The position numbers and the translations under genes are program-made. Positions 5,304-14,778 of a stretch of DNA of 32,787 bases are shown piece by piece. The notes beneath the pieces were generated by a model. It made no database searches, was not told the origin of the DNA, and saw only the letters and a program-made list of their open reading frames with translations. The DNA comes from Gammaproteobacteria bacterium (lineage in GTDB: Bacteria; Pseudomonadota; Gammaproteobacteria; UWMA-0217): positions 1-32,787 of the forward strand of contig JALSHZ010000010.1 in NCBI GenBank assembly GCA_026981985.1, in the 5' to 3' direction. Within the stretch, counting starts at the first letter, position 1; each line of letters begins with the position of its first letter.

Positions 5304-6251
5304 ATGAGTGATGCGTATCATCCCGTGCAACGGCTGCGGGTGACAGCCGGGCAGGCCGGCCAGCGGCTGGACAATTTTCTGTTCGCGCGTTTCCGGCAGC
5401 TGCCGAAGGCCAGGATCTATCGGATGCTGCGCAAGGGAGAGGTGCGCGTTAATGGTGGTCGTGCACGCCAGTCCTATCGTATCCAGGCGGGAGACGAGTT
5501 GCGCCTGCCGCCAGTGCGGCTGCCGGCGGTTGCCGATGCTGAACTGCGCATCGGCAGCCGTGATTTGCAGGCGGTGGCATCCGCGATGTTGTACGAGGAC
5601 GACGATCTGTTGGTGATCAACAAGCCGGCGGGGCTGGCGGTACATTCCGGTTCAGGCGTTGACTACGGTGTGATCGACGTCCTGCGCAAGCTGCGCCCGG
5701 AGGCGCAGTTTCTTGAGTTGGTGCATCGGCTCGATCGCAGCACCAGTGGTTGCCTGCTGCTGGCGCGGAACCGCCAGACCCTGGTTGCGCTGCATGAGCT
5801 GTGGCGCAGTGGTGGTGTGTCAAAGCGTTACCTGGCGCTGGTTGCCGGGCAGTGGCAGGAGGGTCGGCGGCAGGTCGATCTGCCGCTTGAGCGTAGCGGA
5901 CAGCAAGGGCAGATACGGCAGACACGGGTCAGTGACGAGGGTAAACAGGCTTTGTCCCATTTCGAACCACTGACCGTGTTCGACGATGCTACATTGATGG
6001 CGGTGACGATCGATACTGGTCGAACTCACCAGATTCGGGTTCATGCGGCGGAACTCGGCTACCCGCTGCTGGGTGATGACCGCTATGGTGATTTTCGGCT
6101 CAATCGGGAGTGGAAGAAGCGTGGTTTGAAGCGCCTGTTCCTGCATGCGCACAAGCTCGAATTTCGCTTGTCGCCGGGGGCGCCACTGCACCGTTTTGAG
6201 GCGCCGCTGGGTGATGATCTCAATCGAGTGCTGGAGTCTTTGCATGGCTGA
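5304..6251 (+). CDS. rluC: 23S rRNA pseudouridine synthase RluC
   Basis: The 315-residue protein is an RluA-family pseudouridine synthase. An N-terminal S4 RNA-binding domain covers about residues 20-75 (QRLDNFLFARF...RMLRKGEVRVNGGR). The catalytic domain carries HRLDRSTSGCLLLAR with the nucleophilic aspartate at D144. E. coli RluC modifies U955, U2504 and U2580 of 23S rRNA. The family call is firm; RluC rather than RluD rests on its divergent position next to rne, as in E. coli. Its stop overlaps the start of the next gene by 8 bp. Expression may be controlled by the structured leader upstream. Confidence 0.95.
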   Translation: MSDAYHPVQRLRVTAGQAGQRLDNFLFARFRQLPKARIYRMLRKGEVRVNGGRARQSYRIQAGDELRLPPVRLPAVADAELRIGSRDLQAVASAMLYEDDDLLVINKPAGLAVHSGSGVDYGVIDVLRKLRPEAQFLELVHRLDRSTSGCLLLARNRQTLVALHELWRSGGVSKRYLALVAGQWQEGRRQVDLPLERSGQQGQIRQTRVSDEGKQALSHFEPLTVFDDATLMAVTIDTGRTHQIRVHAAELGYPLLGDDRYGDFRLNREWKKRGLKRLFLHAHKLEFRLSPGAPLHRFEAPLGDDLNRVLESLHG

Positions 6252-6906
6252 GCGGCGTTTTGAAGTACTGGTCTTCGACTGGGATGGCACGCTGATGGAT
6301 TCCGCAGCGCATATCGTCGAATGCCTGGAACATGCCATGCAAGCCGTTGGTCTGGAGCCGCGGCCGGCAGATGAGCTGCGGCAGGTCATCGGGCTTGGCC
6401 TGGAGCAGGCAATCGCTGGCATTATGCCCGAAGCGCCCGCAGCCGTGATCGAGCGTGGCGTCGAGGCGTTCCGCGAGCGCTTTCTCGCACCGCAACCGAC
6501 GCCCAGTGAGCTGTTTCCGGGTGTTGAGGCGGTGCTCGATGAGCTGGTCGCCCAGGGGTATCAGATGGCCATCGCAACCGGCAAATCGCGCCGGGGGCTG
6601 AACAAGGTGCTGGCAGAAACCGGGCTGGAGAGCTATTTCCCGGTATCGCGCTGTGCCGATGAAACCTTTTCCAAGCCGCATCCGCAAATGCTCGAAGAAA
6701 TACTCACCGACCTCGATACGCCGCCCGAGCGCGCCCTGGTGATCGGTGACACAGAGTTTGACCTTTTGATGGCAGCTAATGCCGGCGCCGCGGCAGTTGG
6801 CGTCAGCTATGGCGTTCACGATGAAACGCGGCTGCGGCAAGCGCAACCACTGACGATTCTGCACCAGCTTGGCGAGCTACCCGTGTGGCTAAACGGTGGT
6901 GATTGA
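6244..6906 (+). CDS. HAD-superfamily phosphatase, Gph-like
   Basis: The 220-residue protein belongs to HAD subfamily IA. Motif I is DWDGT at residues 12-16, where D12 would be the nucleophile and D14 the acid/base. Motif II threonine lies in MAIATGKSRRG, motif III lysine in FSKPHPQM, and motif IV in VIGDTEFDLLMA. This is the pattern of phosphoglycolate phosphatase-like enzymes, but the substrate is unknown. The ATG at 6244 is chosen because it overlaps the rluC stop by 8 bp and starts just before motif I; the frame is open further upstream only as an rluC shadow. A HAD phosphatase after rluC is also the arrangement I recall in pseudomonads. The product should be cytoplasmic. Confidence 0.88.
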   Translation: MAERRFEVLVFDWDGTLMDSAAHIVECLEHAMQAVGLEPRPADELRQVIGLGLEQAIAGIMPEAPAAVIERGVEAFRERFLAPQPTPSELFPGVEAVLDELVAQGYQMAIATGKSRRGLNKVLAETGLESYFPVSRCADETFSKPHPQMLEEILTDLDTPPERALVIGDTEFDLLMAANAGAAAVGVSYGVHDETRLRQAQPLTILHQLGELPVWLNGGD

Positions 6907-6978: not shown

Positions 6979-7629
6979 GTGAGCAAAAAGCCCAACAACC
7001 CCGCGTCGAAGAAAACTGGCAATGGCACAAAGGTTGCCGGCAGTGAAGCCATGCCCAGCGTCGAGGCGGCGTCAGACACCTCGGCAGCGGCAACCGACAG
7101 TGCAAAGAAGGGCACAAGTCGGCTACTGATTGCTGTGGTGTTGCTCGCAGCGATTGCCTTCTTCCTGTTTCTGCTCGGCAATGTCAATAACGCGACCAAG
7201 GCGGAGAATCCACTGCCGGCGGTGATGAGTTATGCCTCTCCGGGAGACCATGCCCGCGCTGAAATTGCTGGCTTGCTGGCGCGTGGTCAGCAGGCCATCG
7301 ATCTTGACAATCTCTATACGAAGGCCGAGCAATTCCGTGCTGACGGCGCGATGGCAGATGCCTACATCCTCTACTTCTATGCGGCCCGTGATGGTCATGG
7401 TCCATCCGCGTTTCGGCTCGGGATGATGTCTGACCCGGCTTACCATGATGCCTACCGCGATGTGATGGCCGAGCCTGACCTGTTTCAGTCCCTGAAATGG
7501 TATCGAGCCGCCAAGGCAGCCGGGGTCGAGGAGGCCAATGCACCGCTCGACAAACTTGCAACCCTGATAAGGCAGCGTGCAGCCGACGGTGACGCCCAGG
7601 CCCGGCGACTGCTGCTGGAGATTGAATAA
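6979..7629 (+). CDS. Membrane-anchored Sel1/TPR-like protein, first gene of the vWA-ABC cassette
   Basis: The 216-residue protein starts with GTG at 6979, preceded by GAGAGG about 10 nt upstream. Residues 1-45 are polar and rich in Ala, Ser, Thr and Lys. One hydrophobic segment (about 49-68, LLIAVVLLAAIAFFLFLLG) should anchor it in the inner membrane, with the rest in the periplasm. The C-terminal part looks like alpha-alpha repeats of the Sel1 type (ADAYILYFYAARDGHGPSAF, LKWYRAAKAAGVEEA), ending in DAQARRLLLEIE. Such repeats usually bind partner proteins. Its stop overlaps the next start by one base (TAATG), so it is probably a dedicated partner of the secreted vWA protein. I do not recognise a named family. 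Confidence 0.75.
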   Translation: MSKKPNNPASKKTGNGTKVAGSEAMPSVEAASDTSAAATDSAKKGTSRLLIAVVLLAAIAFFLFLLGNVNNATKAENPLPAVMSYASPGDHARAEIAGLLARGQQAIDLDNLYTKAEQFRADGAMADAYILYFYAARDGHGPSAFRLGMMSDPAYHDAYRDVMAEPDLFQSLKWYRAAKAAGVEEANAPLDKLATLIRQRAADGDAQARRLLLEIE

Positions 7630-9725
7630 TGTTCACAAGGCTCAAGACCCAACTGCTGCTGATTGGTGTTCTGTCAGCATGGCTCGTGCTTCCGGTCGTG
7701 GCGGCAGGCGATAAGCCGTTGCTGATGGAAGGCAAACAGACACTGTACCAACGGGTGTTGGTGAAGCCGGGGGCCAAGCTTGCGACGGGGCCGGGTGGGC
7801 AGGGCGAGCGCGAAACCGTGCCGTTCACTGTCTACTATGTCTATGCGCGGAAATCGGTGGACGGCAAACCCTGGGTCAAGCTGGGGGCAGACAGCTTTGG
7901 TGGCACCGATGGCTGGGCCCGTGGCGATGCGCTGATTCCCTGGAATCAGACGCTGACAGTTTCCTTTCGCGATCCAGCCAAGGGCAGTCGCGTGCTCTTG
8001 TTCAAGGACAAGCAAAGCCTCAAGTCGCTGGTCGAAAGCGGTAGCGCCGACAACTACCGGCAGACATATTTGCAGGCGATCGATGGCAAGTTGCCGGAAG
8101 ACTCTCCGGTGGTCGCCATTCAGCCACCTCAGGCGATCGATATCACCGAGGACTTTTACCTCGTCCCGATCATCGACCATGAAGACATCTATCTTGGCAG
8201 TGAAGCAGCGACGATGCTGGAGGTGACAGCCGTGCCCCTGGTCTCCGCCGCAGCGGAATCCGAGCAGCCAGCGGCCGAGGCCAGCACTGCGGTCAAAGAG
8301 GATGTCGCAGCTGAGGATGCAGACGCCAAGGCAGCGGCACGCGCGCAGGCGCGGCAGCAGGCCATCGACAAGGCGTTGCGCGAATACAAGAGTGGTCTGG
8401 TGTTCGTCATCGACTCCACCCATTCGATGCAACCCTATATCGAGCGTACGCGTGAAGCGGTTCGCGCCATCTATGAGCGTCTGGAAAAAGCGGGAGTCAC
8501 TTCAGGCATGAGTTTCGGCGTTGTTGCCTATCGCGATGATCCCGGTGCCGTCGAGGGGCTGGAATACCGCATCAAGACGATTGCCGATCTGCAGCAGGGG
8601 CAGAATGCCGATACTTTCCTGGCGGCGATGGACAAGCTCAAGGCGGCAGAGGTGTCCAGTCAGGATTTTATCGAGGATGCCTATGCTGGTGTCGTCACCG
8701 CACTCGATGGTATCAACTGGAAAGACCGTGATGCTCGCTACGTCATTCTCATTACCGATGCGGGCGCCCGTGGGCCGGACGACAAGCTCGGCAGTACCGG
8801 GCTCGATGCGGAAAAGCTGAATCAGCTGGCGCGGGAAAAGGGTGTTGTCCTGTTGGTGCTGCATTTGCTGACGCCAGCAGGCGAAGACAATCATGCCGCG
8901 GCTGCGGCGCAGTACAAGAAGCTGTCGCACTACCCGGATATCGGCAGCCTGTATCACGGCGTCGCAGCGGGTGATGTCATGGCTTTCGGCAAGGCAGTCG
9001 ATGCGATTGCGGGTCAGATCAGCGGCCAGGTTCAGCACATGGTTGCTGCGGCGGTGGACGAGCAGCTGCCTGATGCGGAACCCGCCGAGGTCGCGCCGGT
9101 TGGCGCAGCGAAAGAAGAGGCAGCACCGTCGGTCGAAGAGGCAAACCTGGCAGCGTTGCAGCAGAAACTGCATAAGCTGGGGCATGCGCTACGCATGCAG
9201 TACCTGCGCAAGCAAAAGGATGGCAAGGTACCCGAAGTGTTCGATGCCTGGTTGATCGACCGCGACTTTCTCAACCCCGAACAGCCCACCGTCGATGTGC
9301 GGGTGTTGCTGACGCGTGATCAGCTCAGTGATCTGCATGATTTGATGCGCCAGGTCATTGATACCTTCCAGAATGGCCTGATCACACCGCAAGGGTTTAT
9401 CGACAATATTCGCAAACTGGCGGCGAAACTCAGCCGCAACCCAGAGCAGTTGGGTGAGGATGGCGCGGGCAGCAGCCTGTCAGAAATGGGTTTCATGAAA
9501 GAGTACATCGAGGATCTGCCTTATCGCAGTGAGGCCATGACCTTGACGCTGGAAGATTGGGCGGAATGGCCGGCGCGGCGGCAGATCGAGTACATCAATC
9601 GCCTGGAGAACAAGATTGCCTACTACAAGGCGTTGTACGACCATACCGATCTGTGGGTGTCCCTCGATGGCGGTTCCGTAGACGGGCAGTCGGTGTTCCC
9701 CATCGAGTTGCAAATGCTGCCTTGA
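7629..9725 (+). CDS. Secreted von Willebrand factor A protein resembling the PpkA C-terminal region
   Basis: The 698-residue protein has an N-terminal signal peptide (hydrophobic 8-24, likely cut near VVA-AG at 25-27). Residues 30-200 form a beta-rich region with repeated short strands (VPFTVYYVYARK, WVKLGADSF) that may be SH3-like. An Ala/Glu-rich linker spans about 205-250. A vWA domain follows at about 255-475, with a MIDAS of D262-x-T264-x-S266. The segment LHLLTPAGEDNHAAAAAQYKKL and the later IGSLYHGV recall the vWA part of the T6SS kinase PpkA, from memory. The C-terminal 200 residues are helical and unassigned. There is no kinase domain. The gene overlaps both neighbours (TAATG, TGATG), so its partners are probably the Sel1-like protein and the ABC pair. 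Confidence 0.8.
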   Translation: MFTRLKTQLLLIGVLSAWLVLPVVAAGDKPLLMEGKQTLYQRVLVKPGAKLATGPGGQGERETVPFTVYYVYARKSVDGKPWVKLGADSFGGTDGWARGDALIPWNQTLTVSFRDPAKGSRVLLFKDKQSLKSLVESGSADNYRQTYLQAIDGKLPEDSPVVAIQPPQAIDITEDFYLVPIIDHEDIYLGSEAATMLEVTAVPLVSAAAESEQPAAEASTAVKEDVAAEDADAKAAARAQARQQAIDKALREYKSGLVFVIDSTHSMQPYIERTREAVRAIYERLEKAGVTSGMSFGVVAYRDDPGAVEGLEYRIKTIADLQQGQNADTFLAAMDKLKAAEVSSQDFIEDAYAGVVTALDGINWKDRDARYVILITDAGARGPDDKLGSTGLDAEKLNQLAREKGVVLLVLHLLTPAGEDNHAAAAAQYKKLSHYPDIGSLYHGVAAGDVMAFGKAVDAIAGQISGQVQHMVAAAVDEQLPDAEPAEVAPVGAAKEEAAPSVEEANLAALQQKLHKLGHALRMQYLRKQKDGKVPEVFDAWLIDRDFLNPEQPTVDVRVLLTRDQLSDLHDLMRQVIDTFQNGLITPQGFIDNIRKLAAKLSRNPEQLGEDGAGSSLSEMGFMKEYIEDLPYRSEAMTLTLEDWAEWPARRQIEYINRLENKIAYYKALYDHTDLWVSLDGGSVDGQSVFPIELQMLP

Positions 9726-10510
9726 TGATGCACGTCCATCAGCAGGGGCACCGGGGTTCTCGCGCCCCGGGCAGAAGTGACGAGCGCGTACTGATCTATC
9801 ATCTGCGCGATGTTGTCAAAACGCGCGAGGCCGAGGGCGTCGCGTTCAAGCTGAAAGTTCCCAGCCTGCAGATTGCTCTCGGTGAAAAGATCGCGCTGAT
9901 CGGCGAGAGTGGCTGCGGCAAGAGTACGTTGCTCGATCTGTTGACCTTCATTTCCCGTCCAACTGCGGTGGGCGCCTTTCGTTTTCGCCCAGAACCCGGT
10001 GCCGCGCCAATCGATATCCAGGCGCACTGGGAGAAAAAACAGTTCAACGAGCTCAGTGACCTGCGGATGTTGCGGCTTGGTTATGTGATGCAGACAGGCG
10101 GGTTGCTGCCGTACCTGACGGTACGCGAGAACATTGGTCTGTCGCGCCGGTTGCTGGGGCTCGACCCGGATGCGGTCGATGAGCTTGCTTACGATCTCGG
10201 CATCCACAAGCATCTGGACAAGAAGCCGTCACAGCTTTCTACCGGGGAGCGTCAGCGGGTTGCCATTGGTCGCGCGCTGGCGCACCGGCCATCGATCGTG
10301 ATCGCCGACGAGCCCACGGCCTCGCTCGACCCCATCGCGGCGCAGCGCATCATGGCGCTGTTCATCGAGATGGTGGAATCGCTGAATATCACGGTTATCG
10401 TTGCCAGCCACGCCTGGCGTCATGTGAAGTCGCTGGGGTTGCGTCGCCTCAAACTGCGTATTCACAAAGATGTGGATGGTGGTGTCGCTGAAACCATCGT
10501 TTCGGGGTAG
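9725..10510 (+). CDS. ABC transporter ATPase of the LolD/MacB/TagT type
   Basis: The 261-residue ATPase has all core motifs: Walker A GESGCGKST (60-68), Q-loop Q123, an ABC signature of LSTGE (171-175) instead of LSGGQ, Walker B IVIADEP (191-197) with E196, and the switch histidine H229 in VIVASH. A 20-residue basic N-terminal tail precedes the first strand. The ATG at 9725 overlaps the vWA stop (TGATG), and the frame upstream is only a shadow of the vWA gene. With the FtsX-like permease 8 bp downstream it should form an inner-membrane complex of the MacB/LolCDE/TagTS class, which transmits ATP-driven motion to periplasmic partners instead of importing solutes. The exact role is unknown. Confidence 0.88.
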   Translation: MMHVHQQGHRGSRAPGRSDERVLIYHLRDVVKTREAEGVAFKLKVPSLQIALGEKIALIGESGCGKSTLLDLLTFISRPTAVGAFRFRPEPGAAPIDIQAHWEKKQFNELSDLRMLRLGYVMQTGGLLPYLTVRENIGLSRRLLGLDPDAVDELAYDLGIHKHLDKKPSQLSTGERQRVAIGRALAHRPSIVIADEPTASLDPIAAQRIMALFIEMVESLNITVIVASHAWRHVKSLGLRRLKLRIHKDVDGGVAETIVSG

Positions 10511-10517
10511 TGGCAGC

Positions 10518-11732
10518 ATGCGTCGTCTGAGAAAACTGCTGTGGTTGTCGTGGCGTGATTATGTCAATGAATGGCAGATGTCGGGCTGTTTCGTGCTGGC
10601 GCTGGCGGCGGTACTGGGGCCGATGCTGATTCTGTTCGGGCTCAAGTCCGGCATTATCGGCAATATGCTCGACCAGCTGGTCAACAATCCGCGGAACCTG
10701 GAAATCCAGACGGTTGGCGCGGGCCGTTTCGACAAGCCGTGGATCGAGGCGCTGCGCCAGCGTCCGGAAACCGGCTTTGTCATCCCGAAAACCCGCAGCC
10801 TGTCGGCAAGCCTGGATCTTAAAAGCGATCATGCACCAGACATTGTTGCCGTTGAGCTGGTGTCGTCGGCGCCGGGTGATCCCCTGCTGGGTGAGTTGGC
10901 CGCAGCGCTGAAGGCACCAACCGATGTGATTCTGTCGGCCGCGGCTGCTGACAAGCTGAGGGTGCGGGCCGGTGACGAAATCGATGCCAGTGTAGCGCGG
11001 CGTTTTCATGGCAAACGCCAGCGTGAACACATTGCCTTGAATGTCGTCGGGGTTGCGCCGCCATCGGTCAATCGCAGGGAGGCCGCGTTCATGCTGCTGG
11101 AGACGGCGGAGGCCATCGAAAGCTTCAAGGACGGGATCGCCGTCGAGACCTTCGGCTGGGATGGCGATGAACCGCAAAGTGAGAGCACACGGCTCTATTC
11201 TGGCTTCAGGCTGTATGCGCGCTCCCTCGACGATGTGACGCAGTTGAGCCGATACATGCAGGATCTCGGCCTGAAGGTGCGCACACGCTCCGAAGATATC
11301 GAGATCGTGCAGGGGATGGACCGGAATCTCACCATGATCTTCTGGGTTGTCGCGATGATTGGCCTGACCGGCTTCTCGGTCTCGCTGGGTGCGAGCCTGT
11401 GGGCCAATGTCGACCGCAAGCAGCGTGATCTCAGCATGATGCGGCTGGTCGGATTCCACACCGGTGACATCGTCTGGTATCCGGTATTCCAGTCGGTACT
11501 GACGGCGATCGGTGGCTGGGCGCTGGCGGTCGCGATCTATTTCGGTGTCTCCAAAGGCATCAACCAGTTGATGGCATCGCAGCTGCGACCGGGAGAGGAA
11601 GTCTGCAAGCTGGTACCCGAGCACTTCGCTCTGGCCTTGTTGTTGACGCTGGCCGCCTCGGTGGTGGCTGCTGCATTGGCCGGGCTCCGCGCCGCGCGAA
11701 TCGAACCGGCGGAAGGGCTGCGCGAGGTTTAG
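10518..11732 (+). CDS. FtsX/MacB-type ABC permease
   Basis: The 404-residue membrane protein starts at the ATG 7 nt after the ATPase stop. One transmembrane helix (about 19-42, GCFVLALAAVLGPMLILFGL) is followed by a large periplasmic domain (about 43-270). Three helices follow near the C-terminus: FWVVAMIGLTGFSVSLGASLW, then about 325-350, then ALALLLTLAASVVAAALAGL. This one-plus-three topology is that of MacB/FtsX/LolC permeases. The coupling segment DRKQRDLSMMRLVGFHTGDI lies between helices 2 and 3, and the chain ends in the typical ARIEPAEGLREV. In the T6SS threonine-phosphorylation pathway TagS is such a permease. No helper lipoprotein (TagQ/R) is present here. Confidence 0.85.
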   Translation: MRRLRKLLWLSWRDYVNEWQMSGCFVLALAAVLGPMLILFGLKSGIIGNMLDQLVNNPRNLEIQTVGAGRFDKPWIEALRQRPETGFVIPKTRSLSASLDLKSDHAPDIVAVELVSSAPGDPLLGELAAALKAPTDVILSAAAADKLRVRAGDEIDASVARRFHGKRQREHIALNVVGVAPPSVNRREAAFMLLETAEAIESFKDGIAVETFGWDGDEPQSESTRLYSGFRLYARSLDDVTQLSRYMQDLGLKVRTRSEDIEIVQGMDRNLTMIFWVVAMIGLTGFSVSLGASLWANVDRKQRDLSMMRLVGFHTGDIVWYPVFQSVLTAIGGWALAVAIYFGVSKGINQLMASQLRPGEEVCKLVPEHFALALLLTLAASVVAAALAGLRAARIEPAEGLREV

Positions 11733-11879: not shown

Positions 11880-13157
11880 ATGACTACAAAAATCACCTAT
11901 TTGGTAAGCCATTACCCCGCCATTTCGCATACTTTCATTCTCAACGAAATTCGCCACCTGCGTGATCAGGGGTTGGATATCGATGTCTGTTCAATCAATG
12001 ATCCGGATCGTGTGGATGAATGCCTCACCGTCGTCGAGCAGGCCGAGAAAAAGCGTTGCTTCTATGTCAAGTCCGCTGGAATTGGTGCGATTGCGCGCGC
12101 GCATTTGGGCTTGTTGCTGAAATCTCCGCTGCGCTACTTCCGCGGGTTGGGCATGGCTGTCAGTTTGGCGGGTGGTTCACCCCGCGAACTGCTCTATCGT
12201 TTGTTCTACTTTGCCGAAGCTGTGGTAGTGGCGCACCGTATGCAGCATCGTGGCAGCAGTCATGTGCATGTTCATTTCGGGTCTGAAGTGGCGACAGTTG
12301 GTCTGCTGGTCAAGCAGGTAGCACCGGTCGGCTTTTCGCTGACCATTCACGGTTCTGATGAGTTTTATGATGCCCCCGGCTTTCATCTGACGCGCAAAGT
12401 CGAAGAGGCGGATTTTATTTTCTGCATCAGCCACTACACCGCGAGCCAGTTGATGCGTCTCTCGGAGAGTCAACATTGGAACAAAATTTCTGTGGCGCCG
12501 CTTGGTGTTGACGTCAACCATTTTTCCCCCCAGAAGAAAAGTGATGACCACGATACGCTTAACGTACTTTGCGTCGGGCGTTTGAATGCAGCCAAGGGTA
12601 TTCATCTGCTACTCAAGGCTGTAGCGCATTTGCACCGTCAATATGATTCACTGCGATTGATTGTCGTGGGTGATGGTGAGCTTCGGGCATCGCTCGAATC
12701 ATTGGTGGAGTCGCTGGGTATTGCTGACCGTGTGGAGTTTGCCGGTGCCGTCAACCAGGATGGGATTCCTCCCTACTATCAGCGTGCCGATGTGTTCTGT
12801 TTACCAAGCTTTGCGGAAGGCGTGCCGGTGGTACTGATGGAGGCCATGTCCATGGAAATTCCTTGTGTGGCGTCACGTATCACGGGGATTCCGGAGTTGA
12901 TCGATGATGGCTGCAACGGGCTACTGTTTACGGCGGCCGATGTCGATGCATTGACAGCCGCTCTCAAACGCTTGCTCGATGATCCGGTGTTGCGCCAGAA
13001 GCTTGGCAGAGCTGGACGGCAGAAGGTGCTCGCAGGCTACGATCTCAATGCCAATTTCACTGCATTGGCCCACCATTTTGTCGAACAACTCGATGGTTGC
13101 GAATCCAGTCAGGAAGGGAGGCGGGGCGCCGTATGGGCGTCGGAACGTTATGTCTGA
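11880..13157 (+). CDS. GT4-family glycosyltransferase, WcaL-like
   Basis: The 425-residue protein has the GT-B fold of family GT4. The N-terminal acceptor domain begins with ITYLVSHYPAISHTFI and contains HVHFGSEVATVGLL and TIHGSDEFYD. The C-terminal nucleotide-sugar domain contains VLCVGRLNAAKGIHLLL, where the basic residues contact the donor phosphates, and the E-x7-E motif in FAEGVPVVLMEAMS. Architecture and motifs resemble exopolysaccharide enzymes such as WcaL. Donor and acceptor cannot be read from sequence. The next gene overlaps it by 8 bp, so the two probably act on the same glycan. It should sit at the cytoplasmic face of the inner membrane. No other polysaccharide genes (flippase, polymerase, Wzc) are in the window. 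Confidence 0.88.
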   Translation: MTTKITYLVSHYPAISHTFILNEIRHLRDQGLDIDVCSINDPDRVDECLTVVEQAEKKRCFYVKSAGIGAIARAHLGLLLKSPLRYFRGLGMAVSLAGGSPRELLYRLFYFAEAVVVAHRMQHRGSSHVHVHFGSEVATVGLLVKQVAPVGFSLTIHGSDEFYDAPGFHLTRKVEEADFIFCISHYTASQLMRLSESQHWNKISVAPLGVDVNHFSPQKKSDDHDTLNVLCVGRLNAAKGIHLLLKAVAHLHRQYDSLRLIVVGDGELRASLESLVESLGIADRVEFAGAVNQDGIPPYYQRADVFCLPSFAEGVPVVLMEAMSMEIPCVASRITGIPELIDDGCNGLLFTAADVDALTAALKRLLDDPVLRQKLGRAGRQKVLAGYDLNANFTALAHHFVEQLDGCESSQEGRRGAVWASERYV

Positions 13158-14778
13158 GGCTATCAGAATTGCCGTCGTCTCTACCGGCGGGCAAGTGCCT
13201 GCCTGGGAAGCTTCGATGGTCGAATCGCTGGCGGCACTGCCTGGTGTCGAGGTTGGGCTGATCATTGATGAATCGCCGCTGGTGGATGATGCGCCGCTAG
13301 CCTTTCGCTGCTACGAGTGGCTCGATAACCGATTGTTTGGGTTGTTCGATAACCCATTGGCTCGGGTGCCTATGCCAAAATCCGTGGCGCACTGGTCTCT
13401 CTCTGATACAGAGGAAATGCTCGATTTGGTGATTTGCTTGTCAGCTGCCCGCAAGGATACGGTTTTTGGCCGGTATGGTGCTCTATGGGTCGAGGCTGTT
13501 GACGATGAGGGGCATGGACTGTCACCGGTTGGTTACCATGAGGTGATGCGCCGGTGGCGCAGTTCGGCCATTGCTGTGCGTCATCGGCGTAAGCCTGGTG
13601 TGTCGGCACGGGTCATCCACTGTTCGCGGTCGAGCACTGATGCCATTTCCATGCGCAGGAATCGTGAGCAGATTTTGTGGAAAGCCAGAGACTTCATTCC
13701 CCGTCTGGTTGCCCGTGCATTGCGCAATGGCGGGGTTTTCCCTGGTTGTGCCGCATCGACCCAGCCTGTTGAATCGAAGTCTACATGTGCTGGCGTAGGA
13801 TCAGCAGCGCTGTTGGCGGGTGATGCGGTAATGTCGTTGGCTTTGGATGATGTATGTCACGAAGTGGTCAGGGGATATCCATCGACGGCTGGGCTAGTCG
13901 GGCAGTTTGCTCATAAACTGCCGGATGTTTTCCGTTTCTACTACCACGCTAAGCTGACGCGTGAGCAATGGTACCTGATGTTCCAGTTCTCAGATCGTAT
14001 CAGTCTGGGACTGGATTCCTATCAAGCCATTGTGCCACCCAAAGACCGTATTTGGGCCGACCCGCATCTGTTGGAAAAAGATGATGTGTGGTACGTCTTT
14101 ATCGAGGAGATGCTGTTTAGCGAAAACAAGGGGTTTATCTCTGTTTTGCAGATCGATGCGCAAGGCGCTTGGACGCAGCCAGTCAAAGTGCTCGAACGTG
14201 ACTACCATCTCTCTTATCCCCAGATTGTCGAATGGGATGGCGAAATCTACATGCTACCCGAAAGTTCTGCCAACCGAACCATCGAGCTCTACCGCTGTAT
14301 CGATTTTCCACTGCGTTGGGAGCGGGTAAAGGTGTTGATCGATGACATCGAGGCTGTCGATTCCTCGTTGCTTTGGCGCGAAGGAAAATGGTGGCTTTTT
14401 TGTTCGGTCAAGCCCCATCCAGCTGCTTCGGAAAATGATGAGCTGCATATCTACTACAGCGATGATCTGCTCACCGGGCAGTGGCAACCCCATGCGGCAA
14501 ACCCTGTGGTCAGTGATGTGACACGGGCGCGCCCGGCAGGCCGGATCTTCGAGCATAATGGGCAGCTTGTCCGCCCCTCGCAGAATTGCGGTGGAATCTA
14601 TGGTTTTGGTCTCAATCTCAATCGAATCACGTGCCTCGATGAAACGAGCTATGAGGAGCAAATCATCGACCACACTAGCGCCGCAGCCTATCCGGGGATG
14701 ATTGCCACTCACACGCTGGCCAGAGAAGGGCGCTTGACTGTGGTCGATGCCTGTCGGCGAATTTCCGTGCTTGGCTAG
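13150..14778 (+). CDS. GINT1-like glycosyl/formyl-transferase-related protein
   Basis: The 542-residue protein starts at the ATG at 13150, 8 bp before the end of the glycosyltransferase gene; the frame upstream is a shadow. Residues 1 to about 215 look like a Rossmann domain (IRIAVVSTGGQVPAWEAS), reminiscent of the formyltransferase-like part of some bacterial homologues. Residues about 295-540 match, from memory, the beta-propeller found at the N-terminus of plant glucosamine inositolphosphorylceramide transferase: RIWADPHLLEK, WYVFIEEM, SYPQIVEWDGEIYMLPES and the DSSLLW...WWLF repeat-like blades. The function of bacterial members is not settled; a role in modifying a surface sugar fits the neighbour. 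I do not see a clear catalytic motif in the N-terminal domain. Confidence 0.65.
   Translation: MSEAIRIAVVSTGGQVPAWEASMVESLAALPGVEVGLIIDESPLVDDAPLAFRCYEWLDNRLFGLFDNPLARVPMPKSVAHWSLSDTEEMLDLVICLSAARKDTVFGRYGALWVEAVDDEGHGLSPVGYHEVMRRWRSSAIAVRHRRKPGVSARVIHCSRSSTDAISMRRNREQILWKARDFIPRLVARALRNGGVFPGCAASTQPVESKSTCAGVGSAALLAGDAVMSLALDDVCHEVVRGYPSTAGLVGQFAHKLPDVFRFYYHAKLTREQWYLMFQFSDRISLGLDSYQAIVPPKDRIWADPHLLEKDDVWYVFIEEMLFSENKGFISVLQIDAQGAWTQPVKVLERDYHLSYPQIVEWDGEIYMLPESSANRTIELYRCIDFPLRWERVKVLIDDIEAVDSSLLWREGKWWLFCSVKPHPAASENDELHIYYSDDLLTGQWQPHAANPVVSDVTRARPAGRIFEHNGQLVRPSQNCGGIYGFGLNLNRITCLDETSYEEQIIDHTSAAAYPGMIATHTLAREGRLTVVDACRRISVLG

Follow-up and report, generated by a model that had tools for sequence, protein, structure and literature searches.

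The window, the whole stretch of 32,787 nucleotides that was analyzed, contains a cassette of four consecutive genes on the forward strand (Table 1). They encode an anchored Sel1-like protein, a secreted vWA protein with a MIDAS, an ABC ATPase and a permease of the FtsX fold. According to the ORF calls, the anchor and vWA genes overlap in TAATG, the vWA and ATPase genes overlap in TGATG, and a 7-nt gap (10511–10517) lies between the ATPase and permease genes. The first-pass annotation had described four genes with overlapping or near-touching junctions; the ORFs and junctions were confirmed to the base, and the four components proved to be those that it had named. Upstream of the cassette lie what we take to be rluC and a gph-like phosphatase gene, near rne (window positions 5304–6906), and in the related genome G003 a presumably sppA-like gene is located between gph and the cassette (locus L012, 5210–6910). 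On the other side, a gene for a family 4 glycosyltransferase (11880–13157) adjoins a gene (13123–14775) whose product matches, in its C-terminal part, GINT1_N (glucosamine inositolphosphorylceramide transferase N-terminal, 3e-45).

Table 1. Coordinates of the cassette genes, of the MIDAS and of a Ser/Thr kinase gene discussed in the text. Positions refer to the window unless another locus is given.
Feature	Position	Strand	Remarks
Sel1-like anchor gene	6979..7629	+	GTG start at 6979; 216 aa
vWA protein gene	7629..9725	+	698 aa
MIDAS loop 1, DSTHS	8412..8426	+	residues 262–266; loop-3 TD at residues 376–377, 8754–8759
ABC ATPase gene	9725..10510	+	261 aa; TagT-like
Permease gene	10518..11732	+	ATG at 10518; 404 aa; TagS-like, FtsX/MacB fold
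Ser/Thr kinase gene	L142 816–2018 (G000 contig C127)		401 aa; one TM, no vWA part; adjoins a gene for a Sel1-repeat lipoprotein

The anchor itself gave no match in a Pfam search of the window protein, and a Sel1 match was obtained for 16 of the 27 members of its family. It has one strong TM segment (residues 49–67), which, in the family alignment, is preceded by a short, unconserved cytoplasmic tail and followed by a variable linker. Conservation resides in the C-terminal half (approximately residues 88–216), which is periplasmic and Sel1/TPR-like. The alignment contains no cytoplasmic output domain in the anchor, and a route for a signal into the cell is therefore not visible.

The vWA protein opens with a signal-like segment and carries no kinase domain. 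The segment is followed by an N-terminal beta domain, the vWA domain (residues 255–480; PF00092 match at 257–413, 5e-8) and a conserved C-terminal domain (approximately residues 500–698); assignment of the beta domain to SH3b is weak, with a match in one of 48 members. The MIDAS predicted in the first-pass annotation from the motif DxTxS is intact. D262, T264, S266 and D377 are invariant among the 48 vWA family sequences, and both the loop-1 motif D-x-T-x-S-M-x-P-Y-I and the loop-3 TDA occur in 80/80 relatives. Given this invariance, metal-dependent ligand binding by the predicted MIDAS is probably under selection. In the AF2 model (pLDDT 82.8) the vWA domain is integrin-I-like, and a Foldseek search with this model returned only vWA-containing structures, leaving the N- and C-terminal domains unassigned. 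Weak likeness to the vWA domain of TssR, a T6SS protein of Bacteroidetes, was detected in 8 of the 48 family members; the window protein, however, remains below the curated TssR cut-off, and its genome has no T6SS sheath gene.

The ATPase matches ABC_tran (Pfam, 2e-25) and carries Walker A, signature, Walker B and H-loop motifs, which are kept in 67 to 74 of 74 relatives. The permease matches FtsX (PF02687, 5e-10) and consists of an N-terminal TM helix, a large periplasmic domain and three more TM helices. For its AF2 model (pLDDT 86.9), the best Foldseek matches were LolC/LolE, MacB and YtrEF, followed by FtsX. As modeled, the permease has the fold of the type VII ABC superfamily, with four TM helices and a large, MacB-like periplasmic domain after TM1.

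A first search covered 55 related genomes and revealed the vWA protein in seven others, from several genera and families; the ABC gene adjoins in all of them and the permease gene wherever the contig reached that far. The neighborhood survey that the first-pass annotation had set as a refuting test was then extended by a scan of genome contigs, in which nearly all of the 80 best relatives have the same four-gene order; its outcome speaks for that annotation. The Sel1 gene is present in 77 of these loci, the ATPase gene in 75 and the permease gene in 74, all in the same order and on the same strand, and the missing genes fall mostly at contig ends. The median gaps between the genes are 5, 12 and −1 bases (with starts taken from the longest ORFs). 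The cassette is a real conserved unit whose gene order is maintained far beyond chance. At three loci (L042, L044 and L178), approximately 3 kb of unrelated genes, presumably thymidine phosphorylase-like, PRPP synthetase-like, transposase and CHAD-like, stand between the vWA and ABC genes, and both of these genes are retained.

According to their titles, all 80 loci belong to lineages of Gammaproteobacteria or Pseudomonadota, save for two MAGs labeled Desulfobacterales and Polarisedimenticolaceae, which may be mislabeled. The carriers include Chromatiales, Sedimenticola, Thiodiazotropha symbionts, an Escarpia endosymbiont and the Olavius gamma 3 symbiont. Of 370 sampled gammaproteobacterial genomes, each at least 90% complete, approximately 29 were counted as holding a full-length member of the vWA family (strong matches) and roughly 7% as holding the cassette, so that it is not a rarity. 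The flanks of the 80 loci are varied and conserved only as lineage-bound housekeeping contexts. The sole recurrent one, at approximately 15 loci, has leuS–lptE before the cassette and holA and nadD after it, genes that we take to be housekeeping and lineage-bound; the search for a functional clue in neighboring genes was given up for this reason.

The vWA profile also matches ORFs of approximately 1,000–1,190 amino acids, from profile positions 17–24 to 659 of 659 and with E values of 1e-168 to 1e-178. At locus L132, the ORF so matched carries a Pkinase domain (7e-46), and its neighbors encode a PP2C (PppA), TagF, homologues of the ABC ATPase and the permease, an FGE-domain TagR, a TagQ-like protein and TssC; this is the layout of TagQRST-PpkA-PppA in the Pseudomonas H1-T6SS. 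The cassette profiles score 240–281 bits against the proteins in the TagT position and 375–414 bits against those in the TagS position. On the basis of these matches and of the L132-type neighbors, the vWA protein is the counterpart of PpkA's periplasmic half, and the ABC pair that of TagT/TagS. The likeness to PpkA and TagT/TagS that the first-pass annotation had drawn is thus borne out by a full-length vWA profile match (E ~1e-170) and by ABC homologues at PppA/TagF loci, and it extends to the order vWA–ABC–permease.

In contrast to TagQRST-PpkA-PppA, the cassette has no kinase domain, PppA, TagF, TagR or TagQ, its vWA protein is secreted rather than membrane-spanning, and a Sel1 anchor has been added. 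No gene for a kinase, PppA, TagF, TagR, TagQ, Srf or TssC was found in the available flanks of the 80 cassette loci. The window genome (98% complete) lacks the sheath genes TssB and TssC; of 49 genomes that hold this type of cassette, many of them MAGs given without a completeness value, just 8 have TssC. The TagR profile yielded only a weak 78-column fragment in the window genome, away from the cassette. The earlier statement that no kinase or T6SS gene is present therefore holds within the window and, for TssB and TssC, genome-wide; it does not extend to kinases in general, as three Ser/Thr kinases are encoded elsewhere in the genome. With kinase, PppA, TagR, TagQ and sheath genes looked for and absent, the cassette falls outside the T6SS threonine-phosphorylation pathway.

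TagR and TagQ are the presumed link between PpkA and the outer membrane. Since both are missing from the cassette, and TagR is represented in the genome by the weak fragment only, the same signal need not apply. In Pseudomonas aeruginosa, T6SS assembly upon mechanical or chemical damage to the outer membrane, including damage of the polymyxin type, depends on TagQRST-PpkA (PMC11881912), and disturbance of the envelope is accordingly the first candidate for the input of the cassette.

Kinase-free vWA proteins also occur in a second setting. At loci L126–L130 and L188, genes for SrfB, SrfC (Virul_Fac match, 4e-297) and SrfA are followed by kinase-free vWA–ABC–permease genes, then by TagR and mostly TagQ. 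SrfA comprises a probable cytoplasmic domain, a TM segment and a C-terminal half that matches the C-terminus of the window anchor (profile comparison: probability 99.1%, E 1.8e-18), and its N-terminal domain is missing from the anchor in the family alignment. Owing to this match, the anchor can be seen as SrfA cut down to a tail, the TM segment and the periplasmic part. The cassette shares with the SrfABC-Tag loci a kinase-free secreted vWA protein, the ABC pair and the homology of its anchor to the SrfA C-terminus, but it lacks SrfB, SrfC, TagR, TagQ and the SrfA N-terminal domain. SrfB is absent from the window genome and from all 49 searched genomes with this cassette type, and SrfC from the flanks of the 80 cassette loci.

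Relatives of tagQRST/ppkA, described as tag and ppkA homologues, were reported in 2013 beside srfABC in genomes mostly without T6SS (PMC3608642), and in 2019 genes tied to the post-translational control of T6SS were reported near srfABC in Xenorhabdus (PMC6950479). The srfABC-linked relatives were therefore already on record, and the designation of the system as undescribed has to be narrowed to the Sel1–vWA–ABC–permease form, which was not found described in the open-access literature searched. The passages on these genes in PMC3608642 and PMC6950479 make no mention that the "ppkA" beside srfABC may be kinase-less. The vWA–ABC–permease genes of the Srf operons at L126–L130, L188, L016 and L171 are kinase-free, and the earlier annotation as ppkA may hide the missing kinase.

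In the vWA tree, 37 of the 38 rows with an anchor gene form one clade (100/99). The kinase-bearing proteins, sampled from just one family with L172 as a probable truncated member in addition, form a single clade (100/99) and stand apart from the anchor clade, as do the Srf groups. The permease tree contains the same sub-clades on a weaker backbone. Because the other settings are kinase-free, the kinase fusion is most simply explained by a single gain, provided that the root is not on the kinase branch. Locus L173 (G521 C388, 3521–9759), with anchor, vWA, ABC and permease genes followed by TagR, falls outside the main clade on a long branch; it may represent a form that stands between the minimal cassette and the Tag loci. 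A further deep and kinase-free branch of the vWA–ABC–permease family comprises L174 (G557), L175 (G788) and L134 (G068). Approximately 4 kb separate the vWA and ABC genes in L174 and L175, TagR is present in L134 and L175, and G557 and G788 hold a second, standard cassette too.

Several other explanations of the cassette have to be weighed. As the permease fold is closest to LolC/E and MacB, the genes could encode a LolCDE- or MacAB-like transporter for a particular lipoprotein, lipid or drug, in which the vWA protein would serve as carrier or adaptor in the periplasm; this appears quite improbable. The ATPase scores 124 bits against the LolD model, whose cut-off is 307.75, and is likewise far under that of FtsE; the permease scores 18.5 bits against the lolCE model (cut-off 362.45) and is also far from reaching that of MacB. 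A true LolC/E is encoded elsewhere in the window genome (512 bits), which excludes LolCDE, and no MacA or TolC-like partner accompanies the cassette. Membership in LolCDE or MacAB was rejected on these missed cut-offs and on the separate LolC/E. LolCDE, MacAB, FtsEX-EnvC and YbbAP-TesA all resemble the cassette in permease topology and fold and in ATPase class, but its scores are far below their family cut-offs, and we know of no vWA partner for any of them. Taken with the conserved motifs and the permease fold, the missed Lol and MacB cut-offs and the genome's own LolC/E favor a type VII ABC machine coupled to an anchored periplasmic vWA protein. Decay of a T6SS threonine-phosphorylation locus after loss of its kinase, for which the shared genes and the sheath gene in 8 of the 49 cassette genomes could speak, is hardly credible: in the vWA tree, 37 cassettes group in a well-supported clade of their own, separate from that of the kinases, the MIDAS and ATPase motifs are intact, no TssC, TagF or PppA gene lies near any of the 80 loci, and elsewhere in the family (Srf loci and most "other" settings) the kinase is missing too. 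This candidate was dropped because of the separate clade, the intact motifs and the absence of T6SS from the window genome.

Another explanation, which we regard as improbable, is a split PpkA, in which the cassette would be the sensing half and the PpkA-like kinase of contig C127 (Table 1) the output half, acting in trans. This kinase is 55–57% identical to PpkA kinase domains over approximately 250 residues, and such kinases (E≤1e-55) occur in 11 of 25 cassette genomes, some of them typed by score only, versus 58 of 345 others (Fisher p 0.002, uncorrected for kinship). At the same threshold, however, they are missing from the three closest cassette genomes, G001, G003 and G004, and from 14 of the 25, so that a C127-type kinase is not a general partner; as a general rule, the split PpkA was set aside for this reason despite the enrichment. 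The main rival is an outward, purely periplasmic action of the cassette as an envelope maintenance effector. The ABC pair would act like FtsEX on EnvC: it would use ATP to set the vWA protein and the anchor to work on peptidoglycan or the outer membrane, by remodeling, repair or tethering, with no report to the cytoplasm. We judge it rather unlikely, though it deserves serious attention: the anchor without a cytoplasmic output domain, the lack of a kinase, phosphatase or Srf gene near the cassette and the type VII fold of the permease all agree with it, but the cassette is not accompanied by a hydrolase, an amidase or a lipoprotein carrier, and the closest studied relatives act in signaling (PMC11881912).

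The reading that we favor, with middling confidence, is that the cassette is an autonomous, kinase-free relative of the TagQRST-PpkA core, namely a type VII ABC complex with an anchored vWA protein that reads or responds to envelope disturbance. From the gene linkage and the full-length homology, we infer that the products would assemble physically. The permease and the ATPase would form a type VII ABC complex that carries no substrate through the membrane and instead uses ATP hydrolysis in the cytoplasm to move a periplasmic domain. The secreted vWA protein would be the periplasmic partner of this complex, equivalent to the extracellular half of PpkA, and the Sel1-like anchor, in the place of SrfA, would hold it near the inner membrane. 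An envelope ligand is probably bound by the MIDAS, and the complex would read, or react to, disturbances in the outer membrane or periplasm; the direction of signaling and the use to the cell are inferred. The absence of TagR and TagQ from these loci and the anchor's lack of a cytoplasmic output domain count against this reading. The first-pass interpretation is partly supported: its analogy holds as homology, and the sensing, adhesion or mechanotransmission role, like the scaffold function of the Sel1-like protein, is hypothetical.

Judged from its sequences, the cassette is a widespread, kinase-free variant of the TagST-PpkA core that is new as a four-gene form, which suggests that the damage sensor also works as a stand-alone unit. 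More tentatively, and as a possibility that we consider open to real doubt, an autonomous kinase-free machine for envelope sensing or mechanotransmission, spread across sulfur-oxidizing and other Gammaproteobacteria, may be the older module, from which the T6SS attack sensor arose by a single kinase fusion. As a natural version without kinase, TagR, TagQ and T6SS, the cassette isolates the sensor core and makes the activity of this core directly testable. The core may prove to be a module open to reuse, coupled to outputs of at least three kinds, namely a kinase that serves T6SS, the Srf proteins, and one that is unknown or purely periplasmic.
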